Positions 7,350-56,709 of a stretch of 64,000 nucleotides of DNA are shown here, piece after piece (the first letter of the stretch is position 1; the number at the start of each line of letters is the position of its first letter). The notes beneath the pieces were generated by a model that was not told the origin of the DNA, did no database searches, and saw only the letters and a program-made list of their open reading frames with translations. Source of the stretch: an uncultured Bacteroidales bacterium. Lineage in GTDB: Bacteria > Bacteroidota > Bacteroidia > Bacteroidales > Paludibacteraceae. Both the position numbers and the translations under genes were made by a program. The stretch is from positions 45,883 to 109,882 of the forward strand of contig CACWNR010000004.1 of assembly GCA_902762355.1 (NCBI GenBank), written 5' to 3'.

Positions 7350-7377
7350 TAACCAATTACCAATCACCAATTATCAA
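7350..7377. repeat. Heptanucleotide repeats, kdsD-kdsC junction
   Basis: Four 7-base units on the plus strand (TAACCAA, TTACCAA, TCACCAA, TTATCAA) fill the space between kdsD and kdsC. They include the kdsD stop codon at 7374-7376. The unit is the same family as in ispD, the GT4 gene and batD. Confidence 0.85.
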
Positions 7378-8348
7378 TGATAGAATCGTGTTCCCGGCAG
7401 GCAGGAGAACGAGTCAATAACACCGCAAACCTTATTACTATTGTCTAGGACAACTAGGGAGTGAATCGAATAATGGTTCATCGTTTCTCCGGCCTCTACG
7501 ATCTTCGCGTTCTGACTGATGGTCTTCGGGTGACGCGCCATGATGTCAGATACCGGTGTGGTAAAGAATTTCTGCCCCAGCTTCTGCATCGCACGACGGA
7601 TATCGCCATCGGTCACGATACCTACCAATCGGTCGTTGTCCACCACGATGCCTACCCCCAACTTGCCGTTCGTCACGATCTCTATAGCCTCACTCATCGG
7701 TGCGTTGGGAGCTAAGAACGGCAGGTTCTCTTTGACCATCACCTCCTCCACTTGTGCCAAGAGCTTACGTCCGAGGTCTCCTCCCGGATGCAGCATTGCG
7801 AAGTCTGAAGGTTGGAAATGTGCTGCTTCTATCAACGCACACGCCAAAGCATCGCCTAAGGCCAAGGTCACCGTCGTAGAGGAGGTCGGCACCAGATTCA
7901 GCGGATCGGCCTCACGCTCCACCGAGATGTCCAGATGCACCTCTGCGTACTTCGCCAAGAGCGAAGAGGGGTTACCGGACATGCCGATGATCGGTATATG
8001 CTTCGCTTGAATCAGCGGCAGGAAACGCAACAGCTCTTCGGTGGCACCCGAATAGGAGATTGCCAACACCAGATCGTTCGTGCCTAACATACCCAAGTCT
8101 CCATGGTACGCGTCCAGCGGATTGAGGAAGAAAGCCGGCGTGCCTGTCGAAGCCAGCGTAGCTGCTATCTTCGATCCGATATGACCGGACTTACCGACAC
8201 CGGTCACCACAATCTTACCCTTGCAGTCATGAATCAGTTGTACCGCTCGAACGAAGGACTCGTCCAGACGCGGGATGAGCGATTGAATGGCCTCCGCTTC
8301 GCACTGGAGGCATTCGGTTGCCCGTTGAATAATTGCTTGTGATTGCAT
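7374..8348 (-). CDS. kdsD: D-arabinose 5-phosphate isomerase
   Basis: KdsD (KpsF/GutQ family) converts ribulose 5-phosphate to arabinose 5-phosphate, the first step toward KDO. The SIS domain (about residues 40-175) shows VVTGVGKSGHIGSKIAATLAS and ISYSGATEELLRFLP. Two CBS domains follow, near 205-262 and 270-320. The length of 324 is normal. The last residues (CLPGTRFYH) look unlike the usual end of the family and are partly encoded by sequence next to the heptanucleotide repeat, so the C-terminus may have been rewritten by repeat growth (inference). Four bases separate it from ispD upstream. Confidence 0.93.
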   Translation of the reverse strand: MQSQAIIQRATECLQCEAEAIQSLIPRLDESFVRAVQLIHDCKGKIVVTGVGKSGHIGSKIAATLASTGTPAFFLNPLDAYHGDLGMLGTNDLVLAISYSGATEELLRFLPLIQAKHIPIIGMSGNPSSLLAKYAEVHLDISVEREADPLNLVPTSSTTVTLALGDALACALIEAAHFQPSDFAMLHPGGDLGRKLLAQVEEVMVKENLPFLAPNAPMSEAIEIVTNGKLGVGIVVDNDRLVGIVTDGDIRRAMQKLGQKFFTTPVSDIMARHPKTISQNAKIVEAGETMNHYSIHSLVVLDNSNKVCGVIDSFSCLPGTRFYH

Positions 8349-8352
8349 TATA

Positions 8353-9039
8353 TTAAGTATTTAAATCTTCCTTGTAAGTTATTTTCTTGTTGGCCTCTTC
8401 GCCCGTCACGATGAAGATGGGTTCTTCCGGCATGTATTTATGCACTATGCCCGCATCGTCCGTGGCAAGGATGTCGCCACTTGCGAGCGCGCGATCGAAG
8501 GCCGTTTGGATCGTCTCTAAGTGGAACGCCTGCGGCGTCTGCGCACGCATGTACTCCGCCCGCGACGGAATACTCTCGACCTGTAACCCCTTCACTTTAT
8601 AGATCGTATCCGTCACCGGTACTGCCACCGTCACCGCCTTATGTTCTTGCAGTGCCTCCGCCACATCCGCTAAGATACGTTGACTCACGAACGGCCGTGC
8701 CGCATCGTGGAACCACAAAGTGATTGGTGATTGGTCATTGGTCATTGGTGATTGGAAAGCTTCTATCGCTTTCCATGACGACTCCCAGCGTTCGTGGCCA
8801 CCCTCGATGATCTTCGCCACTTTTTGCCATCCGTTCTGCAGACACATCCGCTGCGCCTCAGCGATCCAGTCCGCATGCATCACGATGCAGATCTTTTCGA
8901 TACACGGCGCGGCTTCAAAAGTCTCCACCGAGTGCTCCAAGATCGAACGACCGTCACCCAGAGGCATGAGTTGTTTGGGCGTTTGTCCGCCAACCCTGCT
9001 TCCCGTTCCGCCGGCTAATATAACAGCAATGTGCTTCAT
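8353..9039 (-). CDS. ispD: IspD/TarI-family cytidylyltransferase with repeat-encoded insert
   Basis: A GT-A-like cytidylyltransferase of 229 residues. AVILAGGTGSRVGGQTPKQL is the CTP-binding N-terminus, FHDAARPFVS follows near 111-120, and AQTPQAFHLETI plus NKKITYKEDL mark the C-terminal part. IspD makes CDP-methylerythritol for isoprenoids; the close relative TarI makes CDP-ribitol. ILAGGTGSR and NKKIT fit either, and the position before kdsD-kdsC in a glycan region makes a TarI-like role worth considering. I chose the ATG at 9039, because the longer frame to 9171 would run through the promoter. Residues 96-107 are encoded by five heptanucleotide repeats. Confidence 0.78.
   Translation of the reverse strand: MKHIAVILAGGTGSRVGGQTPKQLMPLGDGRSILEHSVETFEAAPCIEKICIVMHADWIAEAQRMCLQNGWQKVAKIIEGGHERWESSWKAIEAFQSPMTNDQSPITLWFHDAARPFVSQRILADVAEALQEHKAVTVAVPVTDTIYKVKGLQVESIPSRAEYMRAQTPQAFHLETIQTAFDRALASGDILATDDAGIVHKYMPEEPIFIVTGEEANKKITYKEDLNT
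8720..8754. repeat. Heptanucleotide repeats inside ispD-like gene
   Basis: Five perfect-phase 7-base units (GTGATTG, three times; GTCATTG, twice) lie in the coding sequence. Read on the minus strand they encode about twelve residues around QSPMTNDQSPITL, just before the conserved HDAARPF strand. Thirty-five bases is not a multiple of three, so the flanks must have adjusted to keep the frame. Confidence 0.9.
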
Positions 9040-9066
9040 AAGTCCACTTTTACCCAAATTAGCATG

Positions 9067-9098
9067 CAAAAGTACGCAAAAGTTTTTATTTGTGCAAA
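9067..9098 (-). promoter_or_regulatory. Promoter of ispD-kdsD-kdsC
   Basis: Read on the minus strand: -33 box TTTG (9095-9098), spacer of 20 bases, -7 box TACTTTTG (9067-9074). This matches the Bacteroidota TTTG / TAnnTTTG promoter form and lies 28 bases before the ispD start. Confidence 0.75.
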
Positions 9099-9132
9099 TA
9101 AAAAGGGATATTTTCGTAATTTTTCTTAAAAA

Positions 9133-9164
9133 TTTGTTTATATGGGATTTTTTTTGTAATTTTG
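9133..9164 (+). promoter_or_regulatory. Promoter of GT4-heptose operon
   Basis: -33 box TTTG (9133-9136), 20-base spacer, -7 box TAATTTTG (9157-9164), 26 bases before the GTG start at 9191. It is back to back with the ispD promoter. Confidence 0.78.
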
Positions 9165-9190
9165 CGCCCAAATTGTAAAATTGCGTTATT

Positions 9191-10342
9191 GTGCGAATAG
9201 GAATATTAGGTACGACATGGCCTTATAGAGGCGGATTAACAGCGTTCAATGAGCGCCTGGCAAGGCAGTTTGCAGCAGAAGGCAACGAGGTGGAGATCTT
9301 CACGTTCACTATGCAATACCCGGACTTCTTGTTCCCCGGAAAGACCCAGTATTCGGACACTCCCAAGCCCGCGGATCTATCCATCACCCGCACAATGAAC
9401 AGCATCAATCCCTTCACTTGGATCCGTACGGCGCGCGCTATTCGCAAGGCCGGCATCGAACTGCTGGTGATTAAGTTCTGGATTCCGCTGATGGCGCCCT
9501 GTTTGGGAACGATCGCATGCCTGTGCCGCCGCAAAGGCATTCGCGTGGTCTCCATCCTCGATAATGTCATCCCCCACGAACCGCATTTCTGGGACAAATG
9601 GCTCATCCGTTATTTCATCGGGAGTGTAGACCGCTTCATCGCGATGTCGGAGAGTGTACAAAAAGACTGCCGCATGTTCTTGCCTGCCCAACGGCATGAT
9701 TCCGTGGCGTTCAATCCCCACCCGCTGTACGATAATTTCGGTCAAGCGGTGTCCAAAGCGGAGGCACGTCAGCACTTGAACCTGCCGCAAGACAAAACCA
9801 TTCTCCTTTTCTTCGGCTTCATACGCGACTACAAAGGCCTTGACCTGCTGATGAAGGCGTATGCGAAGACAATCACCAATCACCAATCACCAATCACCAA
9901 TCTACTACTTGTAGTAGCCGGTGAGTTCTACAACAACGGTGCGCAATATGGAGAACTGGAGAAAGAGTTGGGGCTGAAAGGTACCATCGAATGGCGCACG
10001 GATTTCATTCCCGATGACCAGGTACGCTATTATTTCTCTGCCGCCGACTTGATTGTACAACCCTATAAAACCGCCACACAAAGCGGTGTCACCCAGATCG
10101 CCTACCATTTCGAGCGACCGATGTTAGTCACCCGTGTCGGTGGTCTGGCAGAGATCGTTCCGAACGGCAAAGTGGGCTACGTATGCGAAGTCAATGAAGA
10201 CGACATCGCGCAAGCGATCAGTTCATTCGCGCAGATGGACACCAAACAACGAGACGAGTTATTCCTCAAGAATATACAAAAAGAAAAACAAAAATACGCT
10301 TGGTCACGCATGACCGAAAAGATTTATGATAATACGAAGTAA
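9191..10342 (+). CDS. Family 4 glycosyltransferase
   Basis: A GT-B family 4 glycosyltransferase of 383 residues. The N-terminus IGILGTTWPYRGGLTAFNER is the acceptor-side start with the Gly-Gly loop. RPMLVTRVGGLAEIVPNGK near 313-331 carries the donor-binding E-x7-E type region. The start is GTG at 9191, because the first ATG is well inside the conserved strand. Since the next three genes make GDP-heptose, this enzyme is a good candidate for a heptosyltransferase (inference). Residues about 227-236 (TNHQSPITN) are encoded by heptanucleotide repeats in a surface loop before the LLLVVAGEFY strand. It overlaps hddA by 17 bases. Confidence 0.88.
   Translation: MRIGILGTTWPYRGGLTAFNERLARQFAAEGNEVEIFTFTMQYPDFLFPGKTQYSDTPKPADLSITRTMNSINPFTWIRTARAIRKAGIELLVIKFWIPLMAPCLGTIACLCRRKGIRVVSILDNVIPHEPHFWDKWLIRYFIGSVDRFIAMSESVQKDCRMFLPAQRHDSVAFNPHPLYDNFGQAVSKAEARQHLNLPQDKTILLFFGFIRDYKGLDLLMKAYAKTITNHQSPITNLLLVVAGEFYNNGAQYGELEKELGLKGTIEWRTDFIPDDQVRYYFSAADLIVQPYKTATQSGVTQIAYHFERPMLVTRVGGLAEIVPNGKVGYVCEVNEDDIAQAISSFAQMDTKQRDELFLKNIQKEKQKYAWSRMTEKIYDNTK
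9870..9897. repeat. Heptanucleotide repeats inside GT4 gene
   Basis: Four exact copies of CAATCAC plus a partial fifth. They encode the peptide TNHQSPIT in frame. Three heptads equal 21 bases, so copy number can change by three units without a frameshift. Confidence 0.92.
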
Positions 10343-11351: not shown

Positions 11352-11920
11352 TTCGTTCTATCACAGACAGCATCGCCACCAAGCAAACCATCTTGGGTAA
11401 CGGCGAACTGATCGGTACTATTCAAGCCGTGGCGAACGTCATGATCAAAGCGTTGAAGGACGGCAAACGCATCCTTTGGTGCGGCAACGGCGGTAGTGCA
11501 GCCGATGCCCAACACCTCGCAGCCGAGTTATCCGGACGTTTCTATTACGACCGTCCGCCGCTCAACTCCGAGGCCATGCATTGCAACACGTCCTACATGA
11601 CGGCAGTGGCCAACGACTACGGCTACGACCTCATCTATGCGCGTATGATCGACGGCGCCTGCAAGCCGGGCGATGTGCTGGTAGGTATCTCTACTTCGGG
11701 TAACTCGAAGAATATATGCAACGCTTTTCGCAAAGCGAAAGAGTTAGGCGTCATCACCGTGGCCATGACCGGAGAGACCGGTGGCGAGATGAAAGCGATG
11801 GCGGACTACCTGCTCAATGTTCCCTCCTCCGACACCCCGCGTATCCAAGAGGCACATATCATGATCGGACATATCATCTGCGAAATCGTAGAAGCCCAAC
11901 TCTTCCCCCGTAACCTGTAA
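11339..11920 (+). CDS. gmhA: Sedoheptulose 7-phosphate isomerase
   Basis: GmhA converts sedoheptulose 7-phosphate to D-glycero-D-manno-heptose 7-phosphate, the entry step of heptose synthesis. This SIS-domain protein has 193 residues, the normal length. ILWCGNGGSAADAQHLAAEL (about 42-61) and GISTSGNSKNI (about 118-128) are the sugar-phosphate loops. RIQEAHIMIGHIICEIVE near the C-terminus holds the conserved Gln and His of the active site. It overlaps hddA by 13 bases and lies four bases before hddC-gmhB. Confidence 0.94.
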   Translation: MDTIIRSITDSIATKQTILGNGELIGTIQAVANVMIKALKDGKRILWCGNGGSAADAQHLAAELSGRFYYDRPPLNSEAMHCNTSYMTAVANDYGYDLIYARMIDGACKPGDVLVGISTSGNSKNICNAFRKAKELGVITVAMTGETGGEMKAMADYLLNVPSSDTPRIQEAHIMIGHIICEIVEAQLFPRNL

Positions 11921-11924
11921 CCCC

Positions 11925-14069: not shown

Positions 14070-14089
14070 AATACGCCTAATTTAGCGTG

Positions 14090-14834: not shown

Positions 14835-17800
14835 TTGAAAAAACTCCTATACATAGTATTGTTGCTGTGGCTGCCGTTAGGAACGGTAGTTCAGCATACA
14901 TATGCCCAGAAGACGCTGAAGGAGCTCGTGGCGGAGGAGAAAGCGCGTAAGGAGGCGGAGAAGAAAGCCAAAGAGGAGGAGAAAGCGCGAGAGGAAGCGG
15001 AACGAGCTAAGAGAGAAGAGCAAAGAGCTAAGAGGGAAGAGCAACGGGCTAAGTTAGAAGCCGGTGAGCTGACGCCCGAGGAGGCGGCGGACTTCGTGAC
15101 GGAGACAGACAGCTCGTATTGGGCGCCGACGCGCGTGAAGCAACTCGGGGCGCAGAACTACGGCGAGTTGACACGCCCGAACAGTTCGCTCGATCTGAAT
15201 GATCCGGAAAACATCACCACCACCGTGGAGTACCAACCCGAGACGGGCACGTACGTCATCCGCACCAAACTCGGCGACACGGACATCACGACGCCGTACA
15301 TGCTCACGCAGGACGAGTACAACCACTACGCCGAGCGCCAGATCATGCATTCGTACTGGCAACAGAAGATTGGCGAAGTGGAGCACAACAACGAGAAGAA
15401 GTTCGACATTACGGACATGAAGTTCAACATCGGTCCGGCTGATAAAGTGTTCGGTCCGGGTGGTGTCCAACTGAAGATGCAGGGATCGGCCGAGTTGCTG
15501 TTCGGTTTCAAGCACCAATACATCAACAACCCCTCGCTCACTGTACGCGCGCGCAATAATAACATCTTCGATTTCGACGAGAAGATCCAGGCGAGCATCC
15601 AGGGTAAGGTGGGCTCGAAGCTCAATTTCAACATGAGTTATAACACGGAGGCATCGTTCGCCTTCGACCAGCAGAACCTCAAACTCAACTACAAGGGCGA
15701 AGAGGACGATATCATCCAGTCCCTCGAGGCGGGAAACGTGACGATGGACTTGCCCTCCAACCTCATCCGAGGCAGTCAGGCGCTGTTCGGTATCAAGGCA
15801 AACCTCAAATTCGGTAAGTTGAAGATCCAAGCTTTGGTGAGCCAGCAGAACAGTGAGGCGCAGACGGTGAGCAGTAAGGGCGGTGCGCAGATGACGAAGT
15901 TCGATGTGTCCGGCGATAACTACGACGAGAACCGACATTTCTTCCTCAGTCATTTCTTCCGCGATTTCTATGAGCGCGCGATGGAGACCGTGCCGTACGT
16001 GTCGAGTGGTTTCACGATCAATAAGATCGAGGTCTGGATCACAAACAAACGCGGTAACTACGACCAGGCACGTAATATCGTGGCATTCGTCGATCTGGGA
16101 GAGAACACGAGCCACACGCAGTACGCCTGGGGCGGCAGTCCGAGTGCTGCGCCGGATAACAAGACCAATGTACTCTACTCGACCGTGAGTGCGACCGATT
16201 TCCGTGATTTCCAGCAGACGACCTCGGCGCTCGAAGGGCTGGGCATGGAGAGCGGAACGGACTTCGAGAAAGTCGAGTCCGCGCGCCTGCTGACGAGCGG
16301 TGAGTACACGCTCAACAGTGCGTTGGGTTATATATCGCTCAAGTCGGCGCTCAACCAAGACGAGGTGCTCGCCGTGGCATTCGAATATACGTATAACGGT
16401 CAGGTGTATCAGGTGGGTGAGTTCTCGACGGATAACGTGGCGGACACGGCTACCAGTCTCTCGCCGAAGACCCCGTCTGCGTTGGCATTGAAGATGTTGA
16501 AGTCCAGCGCCAACGCGCCGCGATTTAAGAACCGAGGCACGTGGGACTTGATGATGAAGAACATATACTCTTTGGGGGCGACATCGATCCAGCAGGATAA
16601 GTTCGAGCTCTACGTGACCTACCGTAATGACTCGGTCGGCACGGATCTGCAGTACCTCGACGAAGGACCGATCAAGGGCAAACAACTGCTGCGCGTGATG
16701 AACCTCGACCGCCTCGACCAGAAGCATAACATCACCTCCGACGGACGATTCGACTTCATCGAAGGTCTGACGGTGTACTCGAGCGGCGGTAAGATCATCT
16801 TCCCGGTGCTGGAGCCTTTCGGTAGTCACTTGGCAGCGACCTTGGGCAACGACCCTGCGTTGACAGCCAAATACTGCTTCCAAGAACTGTACGACTCGAC
16901 GCTCGTGGTGGCGCAGGAGTTGAGCGAGAAGAATAAGTTCCACCTGACCGGTAAGTACAAAGGTACGAACGGCAGCGAGATCCGTCTGGGCGCGATGAAC
17001 GTGCCGCGCGGATCGGTGACCGTCACCGCCGGTGGTGCCACCCTCATCGAGAACGTGGACTACACCGTGGACTACACGATGGGAACGGTGACGATCCTCA
17101 ACACGTCGATCCTCGAGTCCGGTACGAACGTTGATGTCAAGTTGGAGAACCAATCAACCTTCTCCATGCAGCGTAAGAGTCTCTTCGGTGCGCACCTCGA
17201 GTATGAGTTCAACAAAGACCTCGTCATCGGCGGTACGATCATGCACCTGCGCGAGCGTCCGTTGACCACGAAAGTGAACACGGGTTCAGAGCCACTGGCG
17301 AACACGATCTGGGGTGTGAACGGAAGCTGGAAGACCGAACTGCAGTGGCTCACCAATGCCATCGATAAGATCCCTTGGATCACGGCGACCGCTCCTTCTA
17401 CGTTCCAGATCAGCGCCGAGTTCGCGCATCTCATCCCGGGTCACACCCGCGATGTGGGCTCCGTCGGAACGGCGTACATAGACGATTTTGAAAACACGAC
17501 CACCAATATCGACGTGCATTATCCGAGTTATTGGTTCTTAGCCTCCACGCCGACGGTCTTCCCGGAATCGAAGATCAACCTCACGCGTGACACAGCGGCG
17601 TATAACATCAACCGCGCGCACATCGGTTGGTTCGCCGTCGACCCTATCTTCGGTTACCCGCAGTCGAACACACCGGCGCACCTGCGCGATGACCTGCGAG
17701 CACTCAGTGACCACCGTACACGTATCGTCTATCAGGATGAGATCTACCCAAACCGCCAGGAAGCAAGCAACGTGGATACGAAGTTAGCCGTCCTCAACCT

Positions 17801-20800
17801 GGCGTACTACCCCGAGGAGCGCGGTCCGTATAACCTCAATGCGAGCGAACTCAATGCGGACGGTAAACTCAAGAACCCGAAGCAGCGTTGGGGTGGTATC
17901 ATGCGGCGACTGGATAACACGGATTTTGAGAAAGCCAATATCGAGTATATTCAGTTCTGGCTGATGGATCCGGCACTCACCAACCCAGAGCATGCGACCG
18001 ATTACGAAGGTGTGCTGTACTTCAACCTCGGTGACGTGAGTGAGGATATCTTACGGGACGGCAAGAAATCGTTTGAGCACGGTATGCCGCTCGCCGAGAC
18101 CGATCAGGGACGTATCGAGCCGACGTTCTGGGGTAACGTACCGCGTACGACGAGTACGGTGGTGGCGTTCAGTAACGAAGCCGGTTCACGTCCGCGTCAG
18201 GACGTGGGTCTGGATGGTCTTCCTAATGATCAGGAGTTCACATGGCCGGCCTATAAGAAATTCTTGGACGACGTGGATGCTGTCCTCAGTCCGGCAACCA
18301 AGGCAAAGTGGGCGAGCGATGCTTTCTCCCCGCTCAATGACCCGGCCGGCGATAACTACCATTACTACCGAGGCACGGACTACGACGAGCAGGAGGTAGC
18401 GATCCTCGACCGTTACAAGCATTATAACGGCACCGAAGGTAACTCGCCCGCTTCCGAACAGCAGACGGAGAGTTACGGTACGGCCGCAACCCTGACACCG
18501 GATATCGAAGATATCAATCAAGATAACACGCTCAATGAGTACGAGCGGTACTATGAGTATAAGGTCATCCTCCGCCCCGATATGATGGAGGTGGGTAAGC
18601 AGAACATCACCGAGAAGAAGATCCGCAAGGTCAGTCTGCGTGACGGAACGACCGCCGAGGTGGCGTGGTATCAGTTCAAGATCCCTCTCCGCGGCGACAG
18701 CGCGACGGTGCGTAAGGAAGGATCGATACGTAACTGGAAATCTATCCGCTTCATGCGTATGTACATGACGGGCTTTGCGCACGAGACCCACCTGCGTTTC
18801 GCTACGCTCGATCTGGTGCGCGGCGACTGGCGTCAGTACACGCGCGATCTGGCTCCGGTAGGTGTGCCGGTTAACAAGGGCGCTTCGATCAGCGTACAGA
18901 CCGTCAATATCGAGGAGAACAGCACCCGTACGCCGATCAATTACGTGCTGCCGCCGGGTGTGACGCGTCAGACCGACCCGGGTCAAGCACAACTCATCGC
19001 CCAGAACGAACAAGCGATGGTGCTCCGCGTGATGAACCTCAGTCCGAACGATGCAAGGGCGATGTATAAGAACACCGGTTACGACCTGCGGCAGTACAAG
19101 AACCTGCAGATGTTCGTGCATGCCGAGCAGATGACGTCGATCGATCCCGATCTGCGGGACGGTGACCTCACCTGCTTCATCCGTATGGGTTCAGACTTGC
19201 GCAATAACTACTACGAATACGAGATCCCGTTGCATCTGACTGCACCGGGTCAATACAATAACAACTCTGCCGCCGATCGTGAACTCGTTTGGCCGACGCA
19301 GAACATGTTCGATTTCCCGCTCCAAGCCCTCACGGCAGCCAAGATGGCGCGTAATAAAGCCAAACGAGCCGGTAACGAAGGCGTGGGTAACACGATCCCG
19401 TACGTCATCTATGATGACGCGAACGATAAACCGCAGAACAAGATCACCGTGCTCGGTAACCCGACGCTGGAGGAGATCAGTTCAATCATGATCGGTGTGC
19501 GCAACCACGGCCAGCACGATGCGAGCGGTGAGATATGGGTGAACGAGTTACGTCTGTGTCAATTCAACGAACAAGGCGGTGTAGCGGCGATGGCGAACGC
19601 CTCGCTGGCCATCAGTGACATCGCGCAGGTGAACGTAGCCGGTCGTCTGGAGACTGCAGGGTACGGTTCGATCGAGTCCAACGTCTTGGATCGAAACATG
19701 GATAATTTCTACCAACTGTCCGTGAGTGCTGCCCTTGAGGCCGGTCGTCTCTTCCCGGAGAAAGCGAAGATACAGATGCCGTTGTACGTGTCGTACAGCA
19801 ACGAGACCACCTCACCGGACTACGACCCGCTCGATACCGACGTCAAGCTCAAAGCGACACTCGACACCTACGACACCAAAGAGGAGAAAGACTCGATCAG
19901 GCAGTTGACTAACACCGTCCATGAGGCGACGTCCTTCTCCGTGTCCAATCTGAAGGTCAATATACACTCGAAGAAGAAGGACATGTTCTACGACCCAGCT
20001 AACTTCTCTATCTCCGCGTCGTACAACAAGCAGAACGAGCACTCGCCCGATATGGAGACCAACGTCACAACCGATCATAGAGGTTCGTTCACCTATGCCT
20101 ATAACTTCAACCCAAAGCCCTGGGAACCGTTCAGTAAGGTAGAGAAAGTGAGCAAAGTGAAGGTGCTCAAAGAGATGAACTTCTACTACTTGCCGCAGTC
20201 GTGGTCGTTCAATACGAACATGCACCGTACCTTCAGTCATATGAAGATGCGTGACCTGACAGGCAACGGCTTTGACGCCGCCGATCTGACGTACAGCAAG
20301 GACTTCACCTGGGATCGTAATGTGGATTTCAAGTACGACCTGACGAAGAATATGAAGTTCAGCTTCCAGTCAGCGATGAATGCCATCATCGATGAAGGTA
20401 AGTACACGCCGGAGATTCTCAAAGGCCAGTATTTCGACGCCGACTTCAACCACGATAAGTACGAGGCATGGAAAGATACGATCCAGCACTCGCTGGCTAA
20501 GTGGGGTAAGCCGTACACGTACCAACAGGTGTTCACCGCGTCGTGGAACGTGCCGTTCAACCGCGTGCCGGGACTCGATGCACTCACTGCTAACGCGTCC
20601 TATAACGCGAACTATAACTGGACACGAACGGCTTCGTCGCTCAACGGTATCGATCGCGGTAACACGGTGAGCAGCGTACAGACCTGGCAGGTGGACGGAA
20701 GTATCAATTTCGAGAGTTGGTACGGCAAGTCCAAGTACTGGAAATCGATGACGCAGCGCTATACAGGTCGTGGTTCGCGGCGTTCCTTCAAGCCCAAGAA

Positions 20801-26023: not shown

Positions 26024-26470
26024 ATGAAAAAATACGTATTTATTAGTATGATGGCGCTGGTGACGTTGGTGTTCACCGGTTGCGAGAAGAACGAGCCGTG
26101 CCAGTTCCACAAAGTGAATGTGGACTTCCGCGTGCCTCATAACACATGGACGTATGATCCCGAGATGGGTTGGTACTCGGCGGTGTATGAGACCAATGCT
26201 CTCAGCACGTACGTGTACGACTACGGCACCTGGACGATGAGCCATGAGTACAATCCCGGTACGGCAGATGCTTATCTGATTCAGTTGCCGGAGATCCTGT
26301 CTCTGCCGGATGAGGATGAGAGCGGCAATCTGCTGGGGTATTACTACCAGCGCATCGATTATGAGGTAGGTGTGGGTTACGTGCGCGTGTATGTGACCAA
26401 TTTAGACTACGCTTATCTGCCGGAATGGAAGCCGGAAGAGATGTATTTCCATATGCAGATTGTCTATTAA
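26024..26470 (+). CDS. Small lipoprotein of unknown function
   Basis: A 148-residue lipoprotein. MKKYVFISMMALVTLVFTGC ends in a lipobox (VFTGC), so Cys 20 is probably lipidated. The mature part is rich in Tyr, Trp and acidic residues, with no motif I recognise. I chose the ATG at 26024, because the earlier in-frame start at 25988 lies within the promoter palindrome. It overlaps the next gene by 11 bases. Why a lipoprotein leads an aromatic-amino-acid gene is unclear. Confidence 0.75.
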   Translation: MKKYVFISMMALVTLVFTGCEKNEPCQFHKVNVDFRVPHNTWTYDPEMGWYSAVYETNALSTYVYDYGTWTMSHEYNPGTADAYLIQLPEILSLPDEDESGNLLGYYYQRIDYEVGVGYVRVYVTNLDYAYLPEWKPEEMYFHMQIVY

Positions 26471-31110: not shown

Positions 31111-31132
31111 AAAAAAGCCCGCGAGTTTGAGG

Positions 31133-42735: not shown

Positions 42736-42779
42736 TTAGTAGGTTATTAGTAGGTTATTAGTAGGTGATTAGTAAGTGA
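42736..42779. repeat. 11-base tandem repeats upstream of moxR
   Basis: Four units: TTAGTAGGTTA twice exactly, then TTAGTAGGTGA and TTAGTAAGTGA. They lie 83 bases before moxR, in phase with about one helical turn each. Confidence 0.9.
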
Positions 42780-42861
42780 TTGTGGTATTCTTAATATTTT
42801 TTTGAAGATTTGGCACAATTTTTGCATGTACAAATTCGGAAAATTATAATTACATTATACT

Positions 42862-46757: not shown

Positions 46758-48464
46758 ATGTTTCGTTTTGCAAATATAGAGATGTTGTGGCTGCTGGCGA
46801 CGATACCGGTTTTTGCAGCAGCCTATTGGGCATATACCCGCCACAAACGCCGTCAGTTGGAGGCGTTCGGTGACGCGGAGTTGATGGAACAGCTGATGCC
46901 GAATGCGAGTCGTGTTCGTCCGACCGTTAAGTTCAGCATCGTGATGGTGGCTTTGGCGCTGCTGATTTTCGCTGCTGCAAGACCACAGTTCGGTACTTCG
47001 GAGCGCACAGAGAAACGGCAAGGAATCGAGGCCATCGTGGCGCTGGATATATCGAACTCGATGTTGGCAGAGGACGTCGCACCGAATCGTTTGGACCGCG
47101 CGAAACAGATGCTGAGCAAGTTGATGGACAACATGATCAACGACAAAGTGGGTCTGGTGGTTTTTGCCGGCGACGCGTTTGTACAGTTGCCTATCACCTG
47201 CGACTACGTTTCGGCGAAGATGTTCCTCAATTCGATCAAGCCGGAGTTGATTAAGACGCAAGGTACTGCGATCGGTCAGGCCTTGAGTACGAGTATCCGT
47301 TGCTTTGGCGAACAGAGTGAGGCAAGTCGGGCAATTATCCTCATCACCGATGGTGAGAACCACGAGGATGATGCCGTGGCCGTTGCCAAACGTGCCAAAG
47401 AGATGGGTATTCAAGTGCTGGTAGTGGGTATCGGTAAACCCGAAGGTTCGCCGATCCCGATGCCGGGAACGAATAACTTCCGCAAGGACCGTGAGGGCAA
47501 TGTGGTAGTGAGTCGTCTGAATGAGGATATGTGCCGCGAGATCGCACAAGCCGGCGGAGGTATCTACGTGCGTTGCGACAACACGAACACGGCCACCAAG
47601 GCCATCCAGAAAGAGTTGGATAAGTTAGCCACGCAAGAGATTGAAACGCAGGTGTTTACGGATTATAATGAGCAATTCCAGAGCTTTGCGCTGATTGCGT
47701 TATTGCTGCTCGTCATTGATTTCTTTATCTTCAACCGTAAGAATAAATCGATCACAAAAATGGATATTTTCGGAGAGCACCGCGTGCTGACGATCGCCCT
47801 GCTGTTGGTGAGCGTGAATATGTTCGCCCAGAAAGAGGCCGGTGACGTTCGGCGCGGTAACAAAGATTACCGTCAGCAGAACTACACCGAGGCCGAAGTG
47901 GACTACCGCCGGGCGCTGGAGAAGAACAAAAACGGCTATGAGGCACACTATAACTTAGGCGACGCGCTGTTCAAGCAAGACAAGTACGCCGACGCGCAGG
48001 CTGAGTTCGAGACGGCGGCGAAGATGCTGGACAAGAAAGAAGACAAAGAGCGTTATGCCAAGGTCATGCATAATATCGGCAACTGCAATTACGCCCAACA
48101 GCAGTACGACAAAGCCGTTCAGGCGTATATGGAGGCTTTGCGCGCGAATCCGAAAGATAATGACACGCGTTATAACCTGGTGAAGGCAATGGAGATGCTG
48201 CAGCAACAACAGCAACAGCAGCAACAGCAGCAAAACCAAGACCAGAAGCAGGATCAGCAACAGCAAGAACAACAACAGCAACAACAGGAACAACAAGATC
48301 AGCAGCAGGAACAACAGCAGCAAGAGCAACAACAGAACGAAGACCAGATGGACAAAGAGACGGCAGAGCAGATCTTGCAGGCTTTGGAGCAGGATGAGCA
48401 GGACACGCAGGAGAAACTGCAACGACAACAAGGTAAGAAACGTCGTGTAGAAAAAGAATGGTAG
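46758..48464 (+). CDS. BatB-BatC fusion (VWA plus TPR, Gln-rich tail)
   Basis: A single frame of 568 residues that joins two proteins usually encoded apart. Residues 1-334 are BatB: an N-terminal membrane segment, the VWA domain (VALDISNSMLAEDVAPNRLD near 94-113) and a membrane segment (FALIALLLLVIDFFIF). Residue 335 is an internal Met (ATG at 47760) followed by a hydrophobic, signal-like stretch ending VNMFAQ. Then comes BatC, with TPR units (YEAHYNLGDALFKQDKYADA and its neighbour) and a Gln-rich tract of about 50 residues from about 481. The internal ATG may also start free BatC. The end is basic (GKKRRVEKEW). Confidence 0.85.
   Translation: MFRFANIEMLWLLATIPVFAAAYWAYTRHKRRQLEAFGDAELMEQLMPNASRVRPTVKFSIVMVALALLIFAAARPQFGTSERTEKRQGIEAIVALDISNSMLAEDVAPNRLDRAKQMLSKLMDNMINDKVGLVVFAGDAFVQLPITCDYVSAKMFLNSIKPELIKTQGTAIGQALSTSIRCFGEQSEASRAIILITDGENHEDDAVAVAKRAKEMGIQVLVVGIGKPEGSPIPMPGTNNFRKDREGNVVVSRLNEDMCREIAQAGGGIYVRCDNTNTATKAIQKELDKLATQEIETQVFTDYNEQFQSFALIALLLLVIDFFIFNRKNKSITKMDIFGEHRVLTIALLLVSVNMFAQKEAGDVRRGNKDYRQQNYTEAEVDYRRALEKNKNGYEAHYNLGDALFKQDKYADAQAEFETAAKMLDKKEDKERYAKVMHNIGNCNYAQQQYDKAVQAYMEALRANPKDNDTRYNLVKAMEMLQQQQQQQQQQQNQDQKQDQQQQEQQQQQQEQQDQQQEQQQQEQQQNEDQMDKETAEQILQALEQDEQDTQEKLQRQQGKKRRVEKEW
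48200..48345. repeat. CAG/CAA-rich tract in batC part
   Basis: A run of CAG, CAA and GAA/GAC codons gives a Gln tract broken by Glu, Asp and Asn. Mixed synonymous codons suggest that the protein property is kept, not a simple triplet slippage repeat. Confidence 0.8.
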
Positions 48465-48465: not shown

Positions 48466-50313
48466 ATGAAAAGACAATTATCGATATTTATTCTCCTTGT
48501 CGGCATCGCGTTAAGCGCGTTTGCCGATGAGGTTGTTTTTAGGGCGCAAGCGCCGAAACAGGTGGTGGTCGGACGTCCGTTCCAGATCACGTACACGGTT
48601 AACCAACGCAGTCGCGATCTGCGTGCACCGGAGTTCACGGACTTCGATGTACTGAGCGGGCCATACACGAGCACGAGTAGCAGTACTTCGTTCGTGAACG
48701 GTAAGCGTACGTCATCGTTCGAGCAGACCTACACCTACATGCTCATGGCGCAGCGCGCAGGCACGTTCACGATCAGTCCGGCGACAGTGAAGGTGGACGG
48801 CGAGAACGTGCAGTCCAACGGTGTACGGATTGAGGTGTTGCCGGAAGATCAGCCGAGTTCATCTACGAGTCAGACGGGTCAATCCGGTCAGACAAGACAA
48901 TCGAGTCAATCGAGTTCATCCGGCCAGGCTTCCTCGGAAAATATCTTCGTGCGAACGATTGCATCCAAGACGAAGGTACACGAGCAGGAAGCGCTGATGA
49001 TCACGTACAAGTTGTATTTCGCGAACGTGGACGTAGCGCAGTTGACCAACAACACCAAGTTACCGGAGTTTACGGGCTTCTTGAAACAAGACTTGGAGCA
49101 AGGCGAGATTCAGACAGAGTTGGAGCATTATAACGGTCGCAATTATCAGACGGCGGTGCTCTACAGCACAATCCTGTACCCGCAGCATTCGGGGGATATA
49201 GCGATTGATCCGGCGAAGTTTGAGGCGGTATTACGTGTGCAAACCCAACAACGGGCACGTTCGATCTTCGATGATTTCTTCGGCACCTATACGAACGTAA
49301 CGAAGATGCTGACCGCCCCGGGAGTGACGATTCATGTAAGTGCCCTTCCGAGCGGCAAACCGGCCGGTTTCAGCGGTGGTGTCGGTAAGTTCACCTTAAC
49401 ACCAAGTATCAGCCAGACAGAGTTGCAGGCCAACGAGGCGGTGACGATCAAATTGGATATCTCGGGTGCCGGCAACATGAAACTCATCAAGACACCGGCG
49501 ATCGATTGGCCGGAAGGTTTTGAGCCCTACGATCCGAAGGTAACGAATAACTTCAAGACCACCACGTCGGGTGTCAGCGGCACGAAGTCGATTGAGTATC
49601 TGGCTATCCCGCGCAGCGCCGGTGAGTACACCATTCCGGCCGTGAAATTCAGTTATTTTGACATCGACGAGAAGGCCTATAAGACGCTCAGCACACCTGA
49701 ATATACGATTCGTGTAAAACGCGGCGCAAGCAGCAACTCCGACAAGGGCGAAGAGGCAGTTGTGGTGAACTACACGCAGAAAGAAGACATCAAGCAACTC
49801 GGTACGGATATCCGCTATATTGACACGAAAGCGCCGAAAATCACCAATCACCAATCACAAATCACTAATTACAACCATGCATGGTTGTGGTACGTTATTC
49901 CATTGTTGATTGCGATCATTCTTCTTATTGTTCTGCGCAAGCAGATTAAGGAAGCGGCGGATATTACAAAGATGAAATACAAACGTGCGAATAAGGTAGC
50001 ACAGAAACGTCTGAAGGCTGCTGCCGCAGCATTGAAAGCGAACGACAAAGATGCTTTCTACGCGGCTATCGAGAGTGCTGCATGGACGTATCTGAGTGAC
50101 CGTCTGTCGATTCCGACGGCAGAGTTGAATAAAGATAATATCGCCTCTATCTTGGTGCAAAAAGGCGTGAGTGAGGAACTTATCAAGGACGTCAATGATG
50201 TCCTCTCTACGGCTGAGTTTGCGCGCTACGCGCCGATCACCGACCACGGAATGGACGACCTCTATACAGCCACCACGAATTTGATTAATAACCTCGAAGA
50301 TCAGAAGATATGA
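48466..50313 (+). CDS. batD: BatD (oxygen tolerance protein)
   Basis: A 615-residue protein of the BatD family. A signal peptide (ILLVGIALSAFA) precedes EVVFRAQAPKQVVVGRPFQI, the family start of the periplasmic beta-rich region. A Ser/Gln-rich linker lies near 128-157, and the beta domain continues to about 455. A transmembrane segment (LWYVIPLLIAIILLIVLRKQ) follows near 474-493, then a cytoplasmic helical tail (YAAIESAAWTYLSDRLSIPT). Residues 458-470 (TNHQSQITN) just before the membrane come from heptanucleotide repeats. It starts one base after batB-batC and overlaps batE by four bases. Confidence 0.92.
   Translation: MKRQLSIFILLVGIALSAFADEVVFRAQAPKQVVVGRPFQITYTVNQRSRDLRAPEFTDFDVLSGPYTSTSSSTSFVNGKRTSSFEQTYTYMLMAQRAGTFTISPATVKVDGENVQSNGVRIEVLPEDQPSSSTSQTGQSGQTRQSSQSSSSGQASSENIFVRTIASKTKVHEQEALMITYKLYFANVDVAQLTNNTKLPEFTGFLKQDLEQGEIQTELEHYNGRNYQTAVLYSTILYPQHSGDIAIDPAKFEAVLRVQTQQRARSIFDDFFGTYTNVTKMLTAPGVTIHVSALPSGKPAGFSGGVGKFTLTPSISQTELQANEAVTIKLDISGAGNMKLIKTPAIDWPEGFEPYDPKVTNNFKTTTSGVSGTKSIEYLAIPRSAGEYTIPAVKFSYFDIDEKAYKTLSTPEYTIRVKRGASSNSDKGEEAVVVNYTQKEDIKQLGTDIRYIDTKAPKITNHQSQITNYNHAWLWYVIPLLIAIILLIVLRKQIKEAADITKMKYKRANKVAQKRLKAAAAALKANDKDAFYAAIESAAWTYLSDRLSIPTAELNKDNIASILVQKGVSEELIKDVNDVLSTAEFARYAPITDHGMDDLYTATTNLINNLEDQKI
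49839..49873. repeat. Heptanucleotide repeats in batD
   Basis: Five 7-base units AATCACC, AATCACC, AATCACA, AATCACT, AATTACA. They encode ITNHQSQITNYN at the edge of the membrane segment, almost the same peptide as in the GT4 enzyme. Confidence 0.9.
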
Positions 50314-51047
50314 AACGGTTTATAATTTGTAATTTATTATTGGTCATTTGTCATTTGACCTTTGCGCAGAGCGATTTCGACATCGCGAATGCAGCTTATG
50401 CGGACGGACGTTATGAGGAAGCCGCTGCGGGCTATGAGGCATTGTTGGCAGAAGGACCGAACGCAACCTTGTACTATAACTTGGGTAACGCGCGCTTTAA
50501 GCAGGGCGAGTTGGCGCAGGCCATCTTGAACTACGAGCGGACACTGCGTCTGGAGCCGAATCACAAGGACGCGCAGTATAACCTGGCGTTTGCGCAGAGC
50601 AAGATCACGGATAATATCGTAGAGCAGGATTTCTTCCTGTCTGCTTGGGCGCGTACGGTGCGCAACAGTCTGCGCGAACAAACGTGGTTGGTGCTCTCTA
50701 TCAGCCTGTTTATCTTGGGCTTGATCGGTATCCTGCTGTTCCTTTTGGGACGTGAGCCTTGGCTACGTAAGACGGCTTTTCACGTCGCATGGTTAGCCCT
50801 ACTCTTCTCGCTTATCGCGGGTCTTAATGCGACCTCACTGCATCAAAGAGACACCCTGCGCAATGAGGCTATCATCACACAGGGTGTCGTGAATGCGAAG
50901 TCTTCACCTGACCGTTCAGGAACGGACCTCTTCACCGTTCACGAAGGCACGAAAGTGACCATCCGTGAGACTATTGGCGAGTGGTCGAACGTTCACGTTG
51001 GCCAGAACGAGGGCTGGATTCGGTCTTCGTGCCTTGAGAGGATCTAG
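50310..51047 (+). CDS. batE: BatE (TPR and SH3-like protein)
   Basis: The last gene of the Bat operon, 245 residues. The signal peptide MKRFIICNLLLVICHLTFAQ is itself encoded by heptanucleotide repeats. TPR units follow (ATLYYNLGNARFKQGELAQA and HKDAQYNLAFAQ), then two membrane segments (about 127-146, VLSISLFILGLIGILLFLLG, and FHVAWLALLFSLIAGL). A C-terminal bacterial SH3 domain (residues about 185-245, KSSPDRSGTDLFTVHEGTKV) ends the chain. It starts inside the batD stop. Its 3' end overlaps a convergent lipoprotein gene by 77 bases. Confidence 0.9.
   Translation: MKRFIICNLLLVICHLTFAQSDFDIANAAYADGRYEEAAAGYEALLAEGPNATLYYNLGNARFKQGELAQAILNYERTLRLEPNHKDAQYNLAFAQSKITDNIVEQDFFLSAWARTVRNSLREQTWLVLSISLFILGLIGILLFLLGREPWLRKTAFHVAWLALLFSLIAGLNATSLHQRDTLRNEAIITQGVVNAKSSPDRSGTDLFTVHEGTKVTIRETIGEWSNVHVGQNEGWIRSSCLERI
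50322..50356. repeat. Heptanucleotide repeats forming batE signal peptide
   Basis: Five 7-base units ATAATTT, GTAATTT, ATTATTG, GTCATTT, GTCATTT encode the hydrophobic core (residues about 5-16, IICNLLLVICHL) of the signal peptide. Confidence 0.8.
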
Positions 51048-52245: not shown

Positions 52246-52250
52246 AACAA

Positions 52251-54884: not shown

Positions 54885-54914
54885 TCGGCGTTGTTTAGAA
54901 AACGCTTTCTCGGT

Positions 54915-54946
54915 GTCGAGCGTTCTCGACCTCGCGCCGCGCGAGG
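54915..54946. other. Two hairpins in nusA-infB gap
   Basis: GTCGAG-CGTT-CTCGAC (54915-54930) and CCTCGCG-CCG-CGCGAGG (54930-54946) are perfect adjacent stems. They lie in the 75 bases between nusA and infB. There is no T-run, so they may be leader structure or mRNA processing signals, not terminators. Confidence 0.75.
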
Positions 54947-54959
54947 GGTTTATGGTTAA

Positions 54960-56219
54960 TTACTCGTTTTCAAACTCTGCCGCGAGGATACGGAGTACCT
55001 CATCGATGGTCTCCTCCTCGAGGTCGGTGCGACGAAGCAGGTCTTCTTTGCTCGTACCCAATACCTCTTTGGCGGTGTCCAGACCGATTGCCTTGAAGGC
55101 GTCGATCACCCACTGATCGATCTCGTCGTTGAACTCATCCAAGTAGATATCGTCCAGATCGTCCTCGTCAATCTCGCGGTAAACATCGATCTCGTAGCCG
55201 GTAAGCATGGAAGCCAGCTTGACATTGTATCCGCCCTTACCGATAGCGAGGCTCACCTCGTCCGGTTGCAGAAATACTTTTGCTTTCTTGTTCTCTTCAT
55301 CGATCTCCATCGAGCTGATCTTAGCAGGAGCCAAGGCACGCTGGATATAGAGGTTGATGTTCGAGGTGTAGTTGATCACATCGATATTCTCGTTACGCAA
55401 CTCGCGTACGATGCCGTGAATACGAGCACCCTTAACGCCCACGCAAGCACCTACCGGATCAATACGATCGTCGAAGGTCTCAACGGCTACTTTAGCACGC
55501 TCACCCGGGATGCGGGCGATGTTCTTGATGGCGATCAGGCCTTCCTTCACTTCCGGTACCTCCTGCTCGAACAAGCGCTGCAAGAACAGCGGAGCGGTGC
55601 GAGAGAGGATGATCTTCGGGTTCTGGTTCTTGTTGTCCACCTGAACCACCACGGCACGAACCATCTCACCTTTGCGGTAGAAGTCCGTCGGGATCTGGTT
55701 CTGCTTCGGCAGATAGAGCTCGTTGCCCTCTTCGTCGAGCAGCAGCATCTCTTTCTTCCATACCTGATAGAGCTCGCCGGTCACTACCTGACCGATCATC
55801 TCTTTGTATTTCTGATAAAGCACCTCTTTCTGGAGCTCAAGGATCTTCGATGCCAAGGTCTGACGAAGGTTGAGGATCATTCGGCGGCCGAAAGAAGCCA
55901 ACTCTACTTTATCCGTTACCTCTTCGCCAACCTCTGCCTCATCGTCCAGTTTCAACGCGTCGCTGAGGGCGATCTGGGTATCGGGATTAGCCACATCGTC
56001 GTCCTCCATCACAAGGCGGTTACGATAGATCTCGAGGTCTCCCTTGTCCGGGTTAACGATAACGGTGTAGTCGGCCGAAGGACCGTACATCTTAGCGATC
56101 ACGCTCTTGAACGACTCCTCCAGCACGGTGATCAGCGTCTGTTTGTCGATACGTTTGAAGTCTTTAAACTCCGAAAAAATGTCAATCAGATTGATTGCGT
56201 CTTGGTTTTTTGTTGCCAT
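54960..56219 (-). CDS. nusA: Transcription termination/antitermination factor NusA
   Basis: NusA binds RNA polymerase and modulates pausing, termination and antitermination. The 419-residue protein has the N-terminal polymerase-binding domain (about 1-130), an S1 domain (VVTGELYQVWKKEMLLLDEE), and two KH domains with GACVGVKGARIHGIVREL and LAIGKGGYNVKLASMLTGY. A short acidic C-terminus follows (DEDDLDDIYLDEFNDEID). The extra acidic repeats of gamma-proteobacterial NusA are absent, as is normal here. It follows rimP by seven bases. Confidence 0.96.
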   Translation of the reverse strand: MATKNQDAINLIDIFSEFKDFKRIDKQTLITVLEESFKSVIAKMYGPSADYTVIVNPDKGDLEIYRNRLVMEDDDVANPDTQIALSDALKLDDEAEVGEEVTDKVELASFGRRMILNLRQTLASKILELQKEVLYQKYKEMIGQVVTGELYQVWKKEMLLLDEEGNELYLPKQNQIPTDFYRKGEMVRAVVVQVDNKNQNPKIILSRTAPLFLQRLFEQEVPEVKEGLIAIKNIARIPGERAKVAVETFDDRIDPVGACVGVKGARIHGIVRELRNENIDVINYTSNINLYIQRALAPAKISSMEIDEENKKAKVFLQPDEVSLAIGKGGYNVKLASMLTGYEIDVYREIDEDDLDDIYLDEFNDEIDQWVIDAFKAIGLDTAKEVLGTSKEDLLRRTDLEEETIDEVLRILAAEFENE

Positions 56220-56226
56220 TTGTATA

Positions 56227-56688
56227 TTAGAATTTTAAATCATATTTCACATATTTCGGTTCATCATAGCGCCAGGTGTGCGTGACGATTTGGGTCTGCT
56301 TGCGCTTCTTGCCTTCGACCTCTACTTTCTCCTCAATATCGACGGAGAAGGTCTCTTCGTCCACCGACACAAGTTGTCCGCGCAGTTTCTTGCCTTCGAT
56401 AAGAATCTCAACATCATGACCGAGGTTCTTCTCGTACTGCATCTTCGTCTTGAACGGATCCGTCAGGCTGACAGATCCCACTTCGAGCGAGTAGTCCGGC
56501 TCCACGGCATCGAGTTTCTCCACCAGATAATGATTCAACTCTGCGCAGAAATCCACATCAACTCCGGCGAGGCGATCCACCTCCACGAGGATGTCATTTC
56601 CCGCTGAGACAGTCAGCGTGATCAGTTCATACTCGGTACCGTTCAGGTACTCTTCAATCCAGTTTTTTAATTCGTCCTTTAAAATCAT
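56227..56688 (-). CDS. rimP: Ribosome maturation factor RimP
   Basis: RimP assists assembly of the 30S subunit. The 153-residue protein has the N-terminal alpha/beta domain (ILVEVDRLAGVDVDFCAEL, VEPDYSLEVGSVSLTDPFK) and a C-terminal SH3-like barrel (GKKLRGQLVSVDEETFSVDI). SLTDPFK replaces the more common SPG(L/I)xRPL segment, as seen in other Bacteroidota (from memory). It heads the operon rimP-nusA-infB. Its 5' leader holds a perfect 11-base-pair hairpin and heptanucleotide repeats that run up to the start codon. Confidence 0.92.
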   Translation of the reverse strand: MILKDELKNWIEEYLNGTEYELITLTVSAGNDILVEVDRLAGVDVDFCAELNHYLVEKLDAVEPDYSLEVGSVSLTDPFKTKMQYEKNLGHDVEILIEGKKLRGQLVSVDEETFSVDIEEKVEVEGKKRKQTQIVTHTWRYDEPKYVKYDLKF

Positions 56689-56709
56689 AAATCTTAAATC
56701 TCAAATCTC
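56689..56709. repeat. Heptanucleotide repeats before rimP
   Basis: Three 7-base units AAATCTT, AAATCTC, AAATCTC directly abut the rimP start codon, in its ribosome-binding region. Confidence 0.8.

Follow-up and report, generated by a model that had tools for sequence, protein, structure and literature searches.

Eight heptanucleotide arrays in the window

The window, i.e., the whole stretch of DNA that was analyzed, comprises 64,000 nucleotides (64 kb) of contig CACWNR010000004.1 (assembly GCA_902762355.1) from an uncultured Bacteroidales bacterium of the family Paludibacteraceae and carries short arrays of tandemly repeated heptanucleotides in and between genes. Such arrays exceed chance in this genome, recur with lineage-specific units at unlinked loci, and occur with unrelated units in orthologous protein loops of congeners. 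For detection, the sequence was compared with itself at a lag of seven bases (+1 for a match, −2 for a mismatch), and runs with a score of ≥11 were retained for the window. Eight runs were obtained, starting at positions 7352, 8720, 9870, 15009, 27362, 49839, 50319, and 56682, exactly the places at which the original prediction had noted heptamers, versus a chance expectation of 0.02 runs per window at the same threshold (100 dinucleotide shuffles). Tandem Repeats Finder (TRF) reported a period of 7 for all eight. At lags 5, 8, 10, and 13 no run in the window reached a score of 10, and at lag 6 one did. The arrays contain 3.6 to 5.9 units with a median of approximately 4.7 (TRF), rather than the five to seven units first given as typical.

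The array at positions 7352 to 7378 (plus strand; TRF, lag-7 score 11) consists of 3.9 degenerate ACCAATT/ACCAATC units and lies between two genes encoding, according to domain searches, an SIS/CBS-domain protein (7374 to 8348, minus strand) and an HAD hydrolase (6853 to 7356, minus strand). The next one, located in frame in ispD (8353 to 9171, minus strand; IspD PF01128, E value 7.8e-43), the gene of 2-C-methyl-D-erythritol 4-phosphate cytidylyltransferase, spans positions 8720 to 8755 (minus strand; TRF, lag-7); its C-rich strand reads CCAATCACCAATGACCAATGACCAATCACCAATCAC, and it encodes QSPMTNDQSPIT within a loop preceding the residues HDAARP. At positions 9870 to 9902 (plus strand; TRF), the perfect array C(AATCACC)4AATC is placed in frame in the gene of a group 1/family 4 (GT4) glycosyltransferase (9191 to 10342, plus strand; domain search), where it encodes TITNHQSPITN within a loop preceding LLLVVAGEF. 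The array at positions 27362 to 27393 (minus strand; TRF), with the C-rich strand ACTCTTCACTCTTCACTTTTAACTTTTCACTT, is likewise in frame, its G-rich strand being the coding one; the host gene (26460 to 27467, plus strand) encodes a fusion of 3-deoxy-D-arabino-heptulosonate 7-phosphate (DAHP) synthase with chorismate mutase, and the array belongs to the chorismate mutase domain.

The 31-bp array AATCACCAATCACCAATCACAAATCACTAAT (49839 to 49869, plus strand; TRF) encodes an apparent linker of BatD (48466 to 50313, plus strand), directly preceding a hydrophobic, probably transmembrane, segment, and has a counterpart of equal length in the congener G476. A degenerate array at positions 50319 to 50364 (minus strand; TRF, lag-7) encodes the signal-peptide-like N terminus of a BatE-like TPR/SH3 protein (50310 to 51047, plus strand; domain search), and the G476 ortholog carries an array of TACTTTG at the equivalent place. 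N termini resembling signal peptides and encoded in heptamer arrays with different units were seen in orthologous or neighboring genes, at positions 50310 to 50364 of the window and near positions 3900 and 6484 of the G476 region, and new signal peptides may originate from such repeats. The array AAATCATAAATCTTAAATCTCAAATCTCAAAT (56682 to 56713, plus strand) spans the start of rimP (56227 to 56688, minus strand; domain search), with the ATG start codon lying within the last unit. As originally proposed, the unit AATCACC is common to the arrays at 9870, 49839, and, on the minus strand, 8720; the array at 7352 is a variant of it.

The remaining array (15004 to 15044, plus strand), near the N terminus of SprA (14835 to 22463, plus strand), is the weakest member. 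It does give a lag-7 run, but its degenerate GAGNNAA heptamers are embedded in a 21-bp repeat that codes for a coiled-coil-like stretch and describes the sequence better (TRF score of 86 as a 21-bp repeat versus 40 as a heptamer). In the congener G516, the matching SprA stretch contains a clear array of heptamers. Seven of the eight arrays are convincing, while the one at 15004 is doubtful.

Genome-wide excess, location, and size

The assembly to which the window belongs comprises 1,941,112 bases and is 76% complete. A sample of 464 kb, consisting of the window and a further 400 kb taken as 20 stretches, contained 48 period-7 runs with a score of ≥14 versus none in one shuffle, by which chance is excluded as the source of the repeat family. 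Lag 7 stood above all other lags from 2 to 13; the other periods in this range yielded 0 to 5 runs, save period 11 with 13, and the 25 runs of period 14 are largely a harmonic of 7. AATCACC was the unit of 13 of the 54 sampled arrays of this genome, and the whole genome contained 65 matches to (AATCACC)3 with up to two mismatches, counted in overlapping windows, versus none to a reversed control. Each of the eight sampled congeners also had runs with a score of ≥14 (between 4 and 14 in 65 to 100 kb), whereas among 19 genomes of other genera, with 20 kb each, they were present only in G462 (five runs); this survey leaves out G009, which is all N. The congeners are represented by single genomes, one per species, and many of the assemblies are fragmented and may have lost or collapsed long arrays. 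In a sample of the phylum, exact (AATNACC)3 was present in 28 of 395 genomes, our own included. The reversed control unit was abundant in some genomes outside the genus in the same sample (e.g., 36 matches in G162, 22 in G203, and 20 in G180), such that bursts in other families seem to involve other heptamers.

With genes assigned from dicodon gene calls made in this analysis, 37 of the 54 arrays of our genome lie wholly in genes, 14 extend across a gene end, and 3 are intergenic, which bears out the view that the repeats often sit in frame inside conserved genes. In 1.18 Mb from nine species of the genus, of which 88% is coding, the corresponding figures for 133 arrays are 68, 37, and 28. Gene ends and intergenic regions thus carry more arrays than their portion of the DNA would suggest, but every second array is located inside a gene. 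The orientation of the coding arrays reflects stop avoidance: in 45 of the 68, tiling of the unit leaves only the coding strand free of stop codons, and in 7 only the reverse strand. Both strands are open in 11 cases and stop-bearing in 5. A role of the C-rich strand in transcription or strand orientation was rejected, since it is the coding strand in 6 of the 11 arrays with both strands open and the G-rich strand in the other 5.

A length of 31 to 33 bp, corresponding to four units plus a triplet, was found for 33 of the 68 coding arrays versus 4 of the 28 intergenic ones. Selection for frame can explain this peak (a 10-bp seed plus 21 bp gives 31 bp). Two observations count against its being the whole story, namely, the four-unit mode of the mostly intergenic Xanthomonas repeats in the available passages of PMC4692102 and the length differences to orthologous coding sites lacking an array. 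The latter (n = 24, several of them from one array compared with several species) ranged from −24 to +33 bp, with +12 occurring seven times and +21 never. As the identity between congeners in aligned DNA is only about 65 to 82%, with the end of an insertion sequence as an exception, these net differences mix several events.

Direct repeats with a period of 11 were observed as well, in the window at positions 6797 to 6838, 42736 to 42781, and 62365 to 62417. In the nine species, 31 of 39 such arrays are intergenic, and they look like promoter-type direct repeats, a class separate from the heptamer arrays.

Lineage-specific bursts

The abundance of a given unit varies strongly between species. 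Matches to (AATCACC)3 with up to one mismatch were present in 90 of the 178 genomes of the genus and absent from 88, with a variance-to-mean ratio of 32.8; in these counts and those for GTCGAAA, overlapping matches in one array are counted repeatedly. Our genome had 27 matches, and the numbers reached 90 in G613, 77 in G602, 76 in G623, and 73 in G547. Near relatives are patchy, with 15 matches in G614, 12 in G578, 14 in G479, 21 in G617, 3 in G476, and none in G516, even though G516 is the best DNA match to our genome among the congeners compared. GTCGAAA, by comparison, is absent from both our genome and G516 but yielded 206 matches in G415, 113 in G514, 106 in G547, 102 in G559, and 74 in G626 (29 genomes), the reversed control giving 24 matches in G415 and no more than 15 in any other genome. 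For GGACAAA, the ranking of the genomes differs from that for GTCGAAA.

Units are also shared within genomes over long distances. Among pairs of arrays from one genome that are separated by more than 20 kb (n = 1,513), 7.1% had identical units, versus 0.88% of pairs between genomes (n = 6,964) and 0.05% for random genomic 7-mers. The whole-genome counts of AATCACC and GTCGAAA are stronger evidence for bursts than this pairwise sharing. In G547, four loci (L304, L306, L309, and L311) display long chimeric arrays in which AATNACC is followed by TTTNACC, beside hairpin-like sequence variants around AGCGTCCTTCCGCTTATCGGAAGG; judged from its sequence, the hairpin is a possible element of the repetitive extragenic palindromic (REP) type.

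Unrelated units in matching protein loops

Variation among relatives at the array sites is strong, in line with the original prediction of a repeat family, and extends to the identity of the unit. Alignment of both flanks gave 36 pairs of orthologous coding sites, some of them reciprocal (the identical two arrays seen from either side), and in 12 of these the partner had a period-7 run with a score of ≥9, compared with 1 of 242 control pairs. In 7 of these 12 array-array pairs the units were unrelated (2 to 4 of 7 positions), and in 5 they were close (5 to 7 positions).

The glycosyltransferase loop provides the most extensive comparison. The 62 loci considered gave 30 distinct loops matching the search pattern, the remainder being unmatched or duplicates, and 9 of the 30 carry a period-7 run from one of several unit families: AATCACC in our genome and G623; GTCGAAA in G626 and G640; GGACAAA-like units in G514, G532, and G550; AGACAAA in G475; and a weak run in G562. 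Loops with an array comprise 14 to 27 residues, whereas of the 21 loops without one, 19 have 8 to 11 residues and two have 14 and 16. The nearest relatives of our glycosyltransferase (G614, G578, and G516; 83 to 85% identity) possess a short loop without array. In four cases the loop unit is identical to a burst unit of the respective genome, namely, to AATCACC in our genome and G623 and to GTCGAAA in G626 and G640, and in G475 it is one base off. The IspD loop carries a run in 5 of 40 sequences, with five different units.

Position-specific variation in AATCACC arrays

The seven positions of the unit do not vary equally. In 50 arrays of the AATCACC class with 243 full units, substitutions numbered 10 at A1, 8 at A2, 1 at T3, 70 at C4, 14 at A5, 19 at C6, and 26 at C7, with C4 replaced by T in 31 cases, A in 21, and G in 18. 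Counted by array, positions 1 to 7 were changed in 6, 7, 1, 26, 8, 11, and 13 of the 50. The pattern holds irrespective of coding status, the 35 coding arrays showing 1 change at T3 and 35 at C4 and the 15 others 0 and 35. The coding arrays use the three codon frames 16, 10, and 9 times. As all three frames are used, the position-specific variation is a property of the DNA and not an effect of the peptide, and selection for the repeat at the peptide level was rejected on the same grounds. The arrays also have preferred ends, with 19 of 50 starting at A1 and 24 of 50 ending at T3; a simulation with random true ends and the substitution rates left unchanged yielded 20% and 30%, and for the bias toward AAT ends beyond these values, p was 0.002 and 0.005. 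Other unit families are also unevenly variable, with a free position that differs by family. According to an expectation-maximization alignment, 95 arrays from five genomes have a motif in common that reads approximately K W N A W T K on the G-rich strand, with a score per array of 3.84 versus 2.77 to 2.91 in phase-permuted controls. Units next to each other differ less than distant ones do (0.79 versus 1.10 differences), a measure favored by the detection rule.

An exact (AATCACC)4 scan over GTDB species genomes returned at least 111 stretches from many phyla, of which 80 listed loci were grouped by organism. The matches listed include arrays of Anabaena, Dolichospermum, and Sphaerospermopsis. 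The 33 listed cyanobacterial loci, mostly from Nostocales and with several from one genome, contain 51 arrays with 394 units, in which T3 was changed once and C4 83 times (73 times from C to T). A2 was changed 49 times, but in only 8 arrays, whereas C4 was changed in 24. The rule of a fixed T3 and a free C4 is clear in cyanobacteria and partial elsewhere.

Comparison with known heptanucleotide repeats

Heterocystous cyanobacteria are known for short tandemly repeated heptanucleotides (STRRs). The likeness to these repeats suggested in the original prediction is borne out by the occurrence of AATCACC in cyanobacteria with T3 fixed and C4 the most changed position; the cyanobacterial AATCACC arrays are longer than those of the genus, with a median of 49 bp among the listed matches. 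The arrays of our genome show the dispersed 7-bp excess and the few dominant units by which STRRs and long simple sequence repeats (LSSRs) are defined, but they are not mostly intergenic. In the available passages of Rehm 2015 (PMC4692102), GGGAATC arrays of Xanthomonas and GGGGA(T/C)T arrays of Nostoc are described, and our arrays resemble them in the 7-bp units, the four-unit mode, the combination of fixed and free positions (GGGANTN), and the lineage-restricted, genome-wide burst of one unit. They differ in location, since 89 to 93% of the Xanthomonas arrays are given there as intergenic and 37 of 54 here lie wholly in genes, and in the unrelated units that congeners have at matching sites.

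TAACTGA arrays, reported from Beggiatoaceae, cyanobacteria, and five Bacteroidota genomes, are likewise dispersed heptamers, and the available passages of that report (MacGregor 2015, PMC4679880) state that a mechanism for their transfer between lineages is not evident. According to the same passages they are mostly intergenic, often just upstream of start codons, consist of one unit, and have a proposed translational role, unlike our genome with its several units and many coding arrays. TAACTGA was not among the arrays listed for the 464-kb sample, and TAACTGA arrays upstream of start codons were not found there. The motif TDNGATT, described in accessible parts of PMC4476775 as the P6b motif of the tRNA-Leu intron of Nostoc, resembles the G-rich-strand motif of the genus.

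As to mechanism, array growth has been attributed, as a proposal, to slippage of the polymerase in steps of 7 nt (Mrazek 2007, as quoted in passages of PMC4679880 and PMC4692102), and a process spreading a unit within one genome is not described in the passages of these two reports. The original statement that no process spreading heptamers in Bacteroidota has been described thus holds for these passages, although arrays in that phylum and 7-nt slippage had already been reported. DRT10, as far as passages of PMC12632851 describe it, re-anneals at a short repeat, of 2 nt in two systems, and in this way produces DNA of tandem repeats, with pairing strictest at the primer 3′ end. The A-B-A′ grammar and the short-repeat re-annealing proposed for our arrays resemble those of DRT10 and telomerase, which is a resemblance and not membership. 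DRT10 in these passages requires a reverse transcriptase and makes protein-primed cDNA, with 9-nt repeats in Eco3DRT10. Heptamer arrays inside genes of a Bacteroidales genus were not found among the literature matches listed. The kind of array is known; what is new is its coding location, the unrelated units at matching sites, and the bursts across one genus.

Possible origin of the arrays

The AATCACC arrays tend to have AAT at both ends, with T3 near-invariant and C4 nearly free, and the coding arrays mostly avoid stop-bearing units. AAT ends together with a fixed T3 and a free C4 fit repeated re-priming, and the genome-wide recurrence of units calls either for a transfer of template sequence between loci or for some other genome-wide advantage of the burst unit. 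With some reservation, we lean toward the dispersed arrays being the product of a genome-wide copying process with re-priming, subsequently filtered by selection. An array would be written as AAT-(NACC-AAT)n, the 3′ end in AAT annealing to the AAT seven bases back or to one on another array (model template for re-priming on the AAT primer tip: AATNACCAAT). The first added base would be error-prone, rendering N4 variable, while the T3 base at the primer tip would have to match. AAT-NACC-AAT stretches elsewhere could act as template, the heptamer spreading in trans and displacing older units, and each lineage would show its own burst. Most inserts in genes would be lost, and survivors, often of 31 to 33 bp, i.e., four units plus a triplet, would be open and located in loops, linkers, signal peptides, or gene ends. 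The AAT-NACC-AAT pattern is also comparable to an A-B-A′ product of DRT10, but DNA re-priming explains it as well.

Several results weigh against this reading. Outside cyanobacteria, the 14 listed gammaproteobacterial loci (121 units) had T3 changed once and C4 only three times, such that C4 was not the freest position; the 16 listed Bacteroidota loci, at least two of them from G547, had 9 changes at T3 (two arrays) and 13 at C4 in 128 units, and the 17 remaining listed loci had 13 (two arrays) and 12 in 179 units. The bias toward AAT ends is partly a detection artifact of the variable C4. Without our own genome, unit sharing beyond 20 kb falls to 1.5% (n = 203) versus 0.9%, and neighboring arrays share units more often (12% versus 4.7%), as local slippage would give. 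The glycosyltransferase loop units of G514, G532, and G550 differ from the burst unit tested. Furthermore, the bursts are not strictly per species, as AATCACC also occurs in the near relatives G614, G578, G479, and G617; part of these arrays may be inherited, and copying in trans is compatible with bursts common to some near relatives. The 31-bp peak may be the frame effect mentioned above, and at coding sites the net differences in length are not cleanly accounted for by 7-bp steps or by the insertion of whole 31-bp arrays. A congener above approximately 80% DNA identity, judged on one or two regions, was not found, and the congeners being too distant, there is no clean empty site showing an insertion. 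Finally, a writing enzyme was not found among the enzymes searched for: RVT_1 was matched in one of nine genus genomes, with none in our 76% complete genome or in three genomes that are 97 to 98% complete, and Ku in none of 24 genomes. Candidates rejected on the basis of these searches are templating by a reverse transcriptase, with RVT_1 missing in eight of the nine genomes including our own, and Ku-dependent end joining with filler DNA. Spreading by a REP-associated tyrosine (RAYT)/Y1 transposase, as for REP elements, was set aside provisionally: Y1_Tnp exceeded the cutoff in 4 of 18 genus genomes searched, in two of them as fragments, and the match in our genome was only a fragment of 49 positions.

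Purely local slippage, in which a 7-bp step starts at a chance 3-bp microhomology and nothing spreads, is possible but rather unlikely. In genes, the addition of 21 bp (three units) alone would keep the frame, leading to 4.4 units or about 31 bp, and the likeness of units would stem from composition, stop avoidance, inheritance, and chance. A published precedent exists for 7-nt slippage, as cited above, and the 31- to 33-bp peak present in coding and missing in intergenic arrays, the more frequent unit sharing between neighboring arrays, and three array-bearing glycosyltransferase loops of 17 residues versus the usual 10, i.e., +21 bp, agree with it; the greater likeness of adjacent units carries little weight, being favored by the detection rule. 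Slippage does not predict, however, bursts of one heptamer with none in a near relative, the identical unit at unlinked loci, or a fixed T3 and free C4 in coding and noncoding arrays alike, and none of the 24 net length differences is the expected +21 bp, while seven are +12. For these reasons array-to-site copying with re-priming remains our tentative preference.

A functional DNA motif is an unlikely explanation. Here, a protein would recognize AAT-like triplets at 7-bp spacing, in chromosome organization, repair, or uptake, and selection would keep about one array per 10 kb where the DNA tolerates it. The degenerate motif of the 95 aligned arrays, the retention of T3 and freedom of C4 whatever the coding status, and the presence of runs in all eight congeners sampled are in favor of such a motif; yet units within an array are near-copies rather than independent draws from a motif, with the proviso that detection favors likeness, the unit differs between species, and sites in essential-type genes would be odd for a binding platform. 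Decidedly unlikely, too, is a trans-acting RNA or DNA template machine, dedicated or accidental, that would add heptamers by an A-B-A′ cycle chromosome-wide, essential genes included, with a template that changes by lineage; given that the fixed and the most-changed position of AATCACC are the same in cyanobacteria, the machine or its rule would in that case be shared between phyla. A specific, telomerase-like version with a DRT10-like reverse transcriptase and an AAT-NACC-AAT template, the products of which enter the chromosome, appears highly improbable: the strict primer 3′ end and re-annealing reported for DRT10 resemble the T3/C4 pattern, and lineage-specific units would follow from a template acting in trans, but RVT_1 is unmatched in most genus genomes searched, including the nearly complete ones, and genome integration of DRT10 products is not described in the available passages of PMC12632851. 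Least credible of all are phase-variable contingency repeats, with copy-number changes switching host genes on and off. A 7-bp unit does shift the frame and the arrays do lie in genes, but ispD, the DAHP synthase-chorismate mutase gene, and rimP are poor candidates for switching, not being surface or host-interaction genes, and most of the arrays, which are short, are imperfect.

Bacteria have long been known to carry heptanucleotide arrays, for which there is no agreed mechanism, and what writes and spreads them now becomes testable in a genus whose 178 species genomes constitute a natural experiment, with different units per species in matching loops. The comparison suggests that some enzyme loops, linkers, and signal peptides here originated by the insertion of repeats and not by gradual change.

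Other features of the window

An insertion sequence at positions 31126 to 32488 of the window contains a 441-amino-acid open reading frame (ORF) with HTH_21 and rve integrase-core domains; its end is 97% identical over approximately 98 bp to the end of a G476 contig, compared with about 74% in the surrounding DNA. It is followed by an ORF of 3,313 amino acids (32568 to 42509) in which a cadherin-like domain is the sole one recognized. CAA/CAG-rich repeats are located at positions 48200 to 48335, near the 3′ end of a BatA/VWA/TPR gene, and the G476 region has similar repeats with a period of 9. A BspA-type leucine-rich-repeat protein of 1,077 amino acids is encoded at positions 58929 to 62162 and features a 129-bp tandem repeat.

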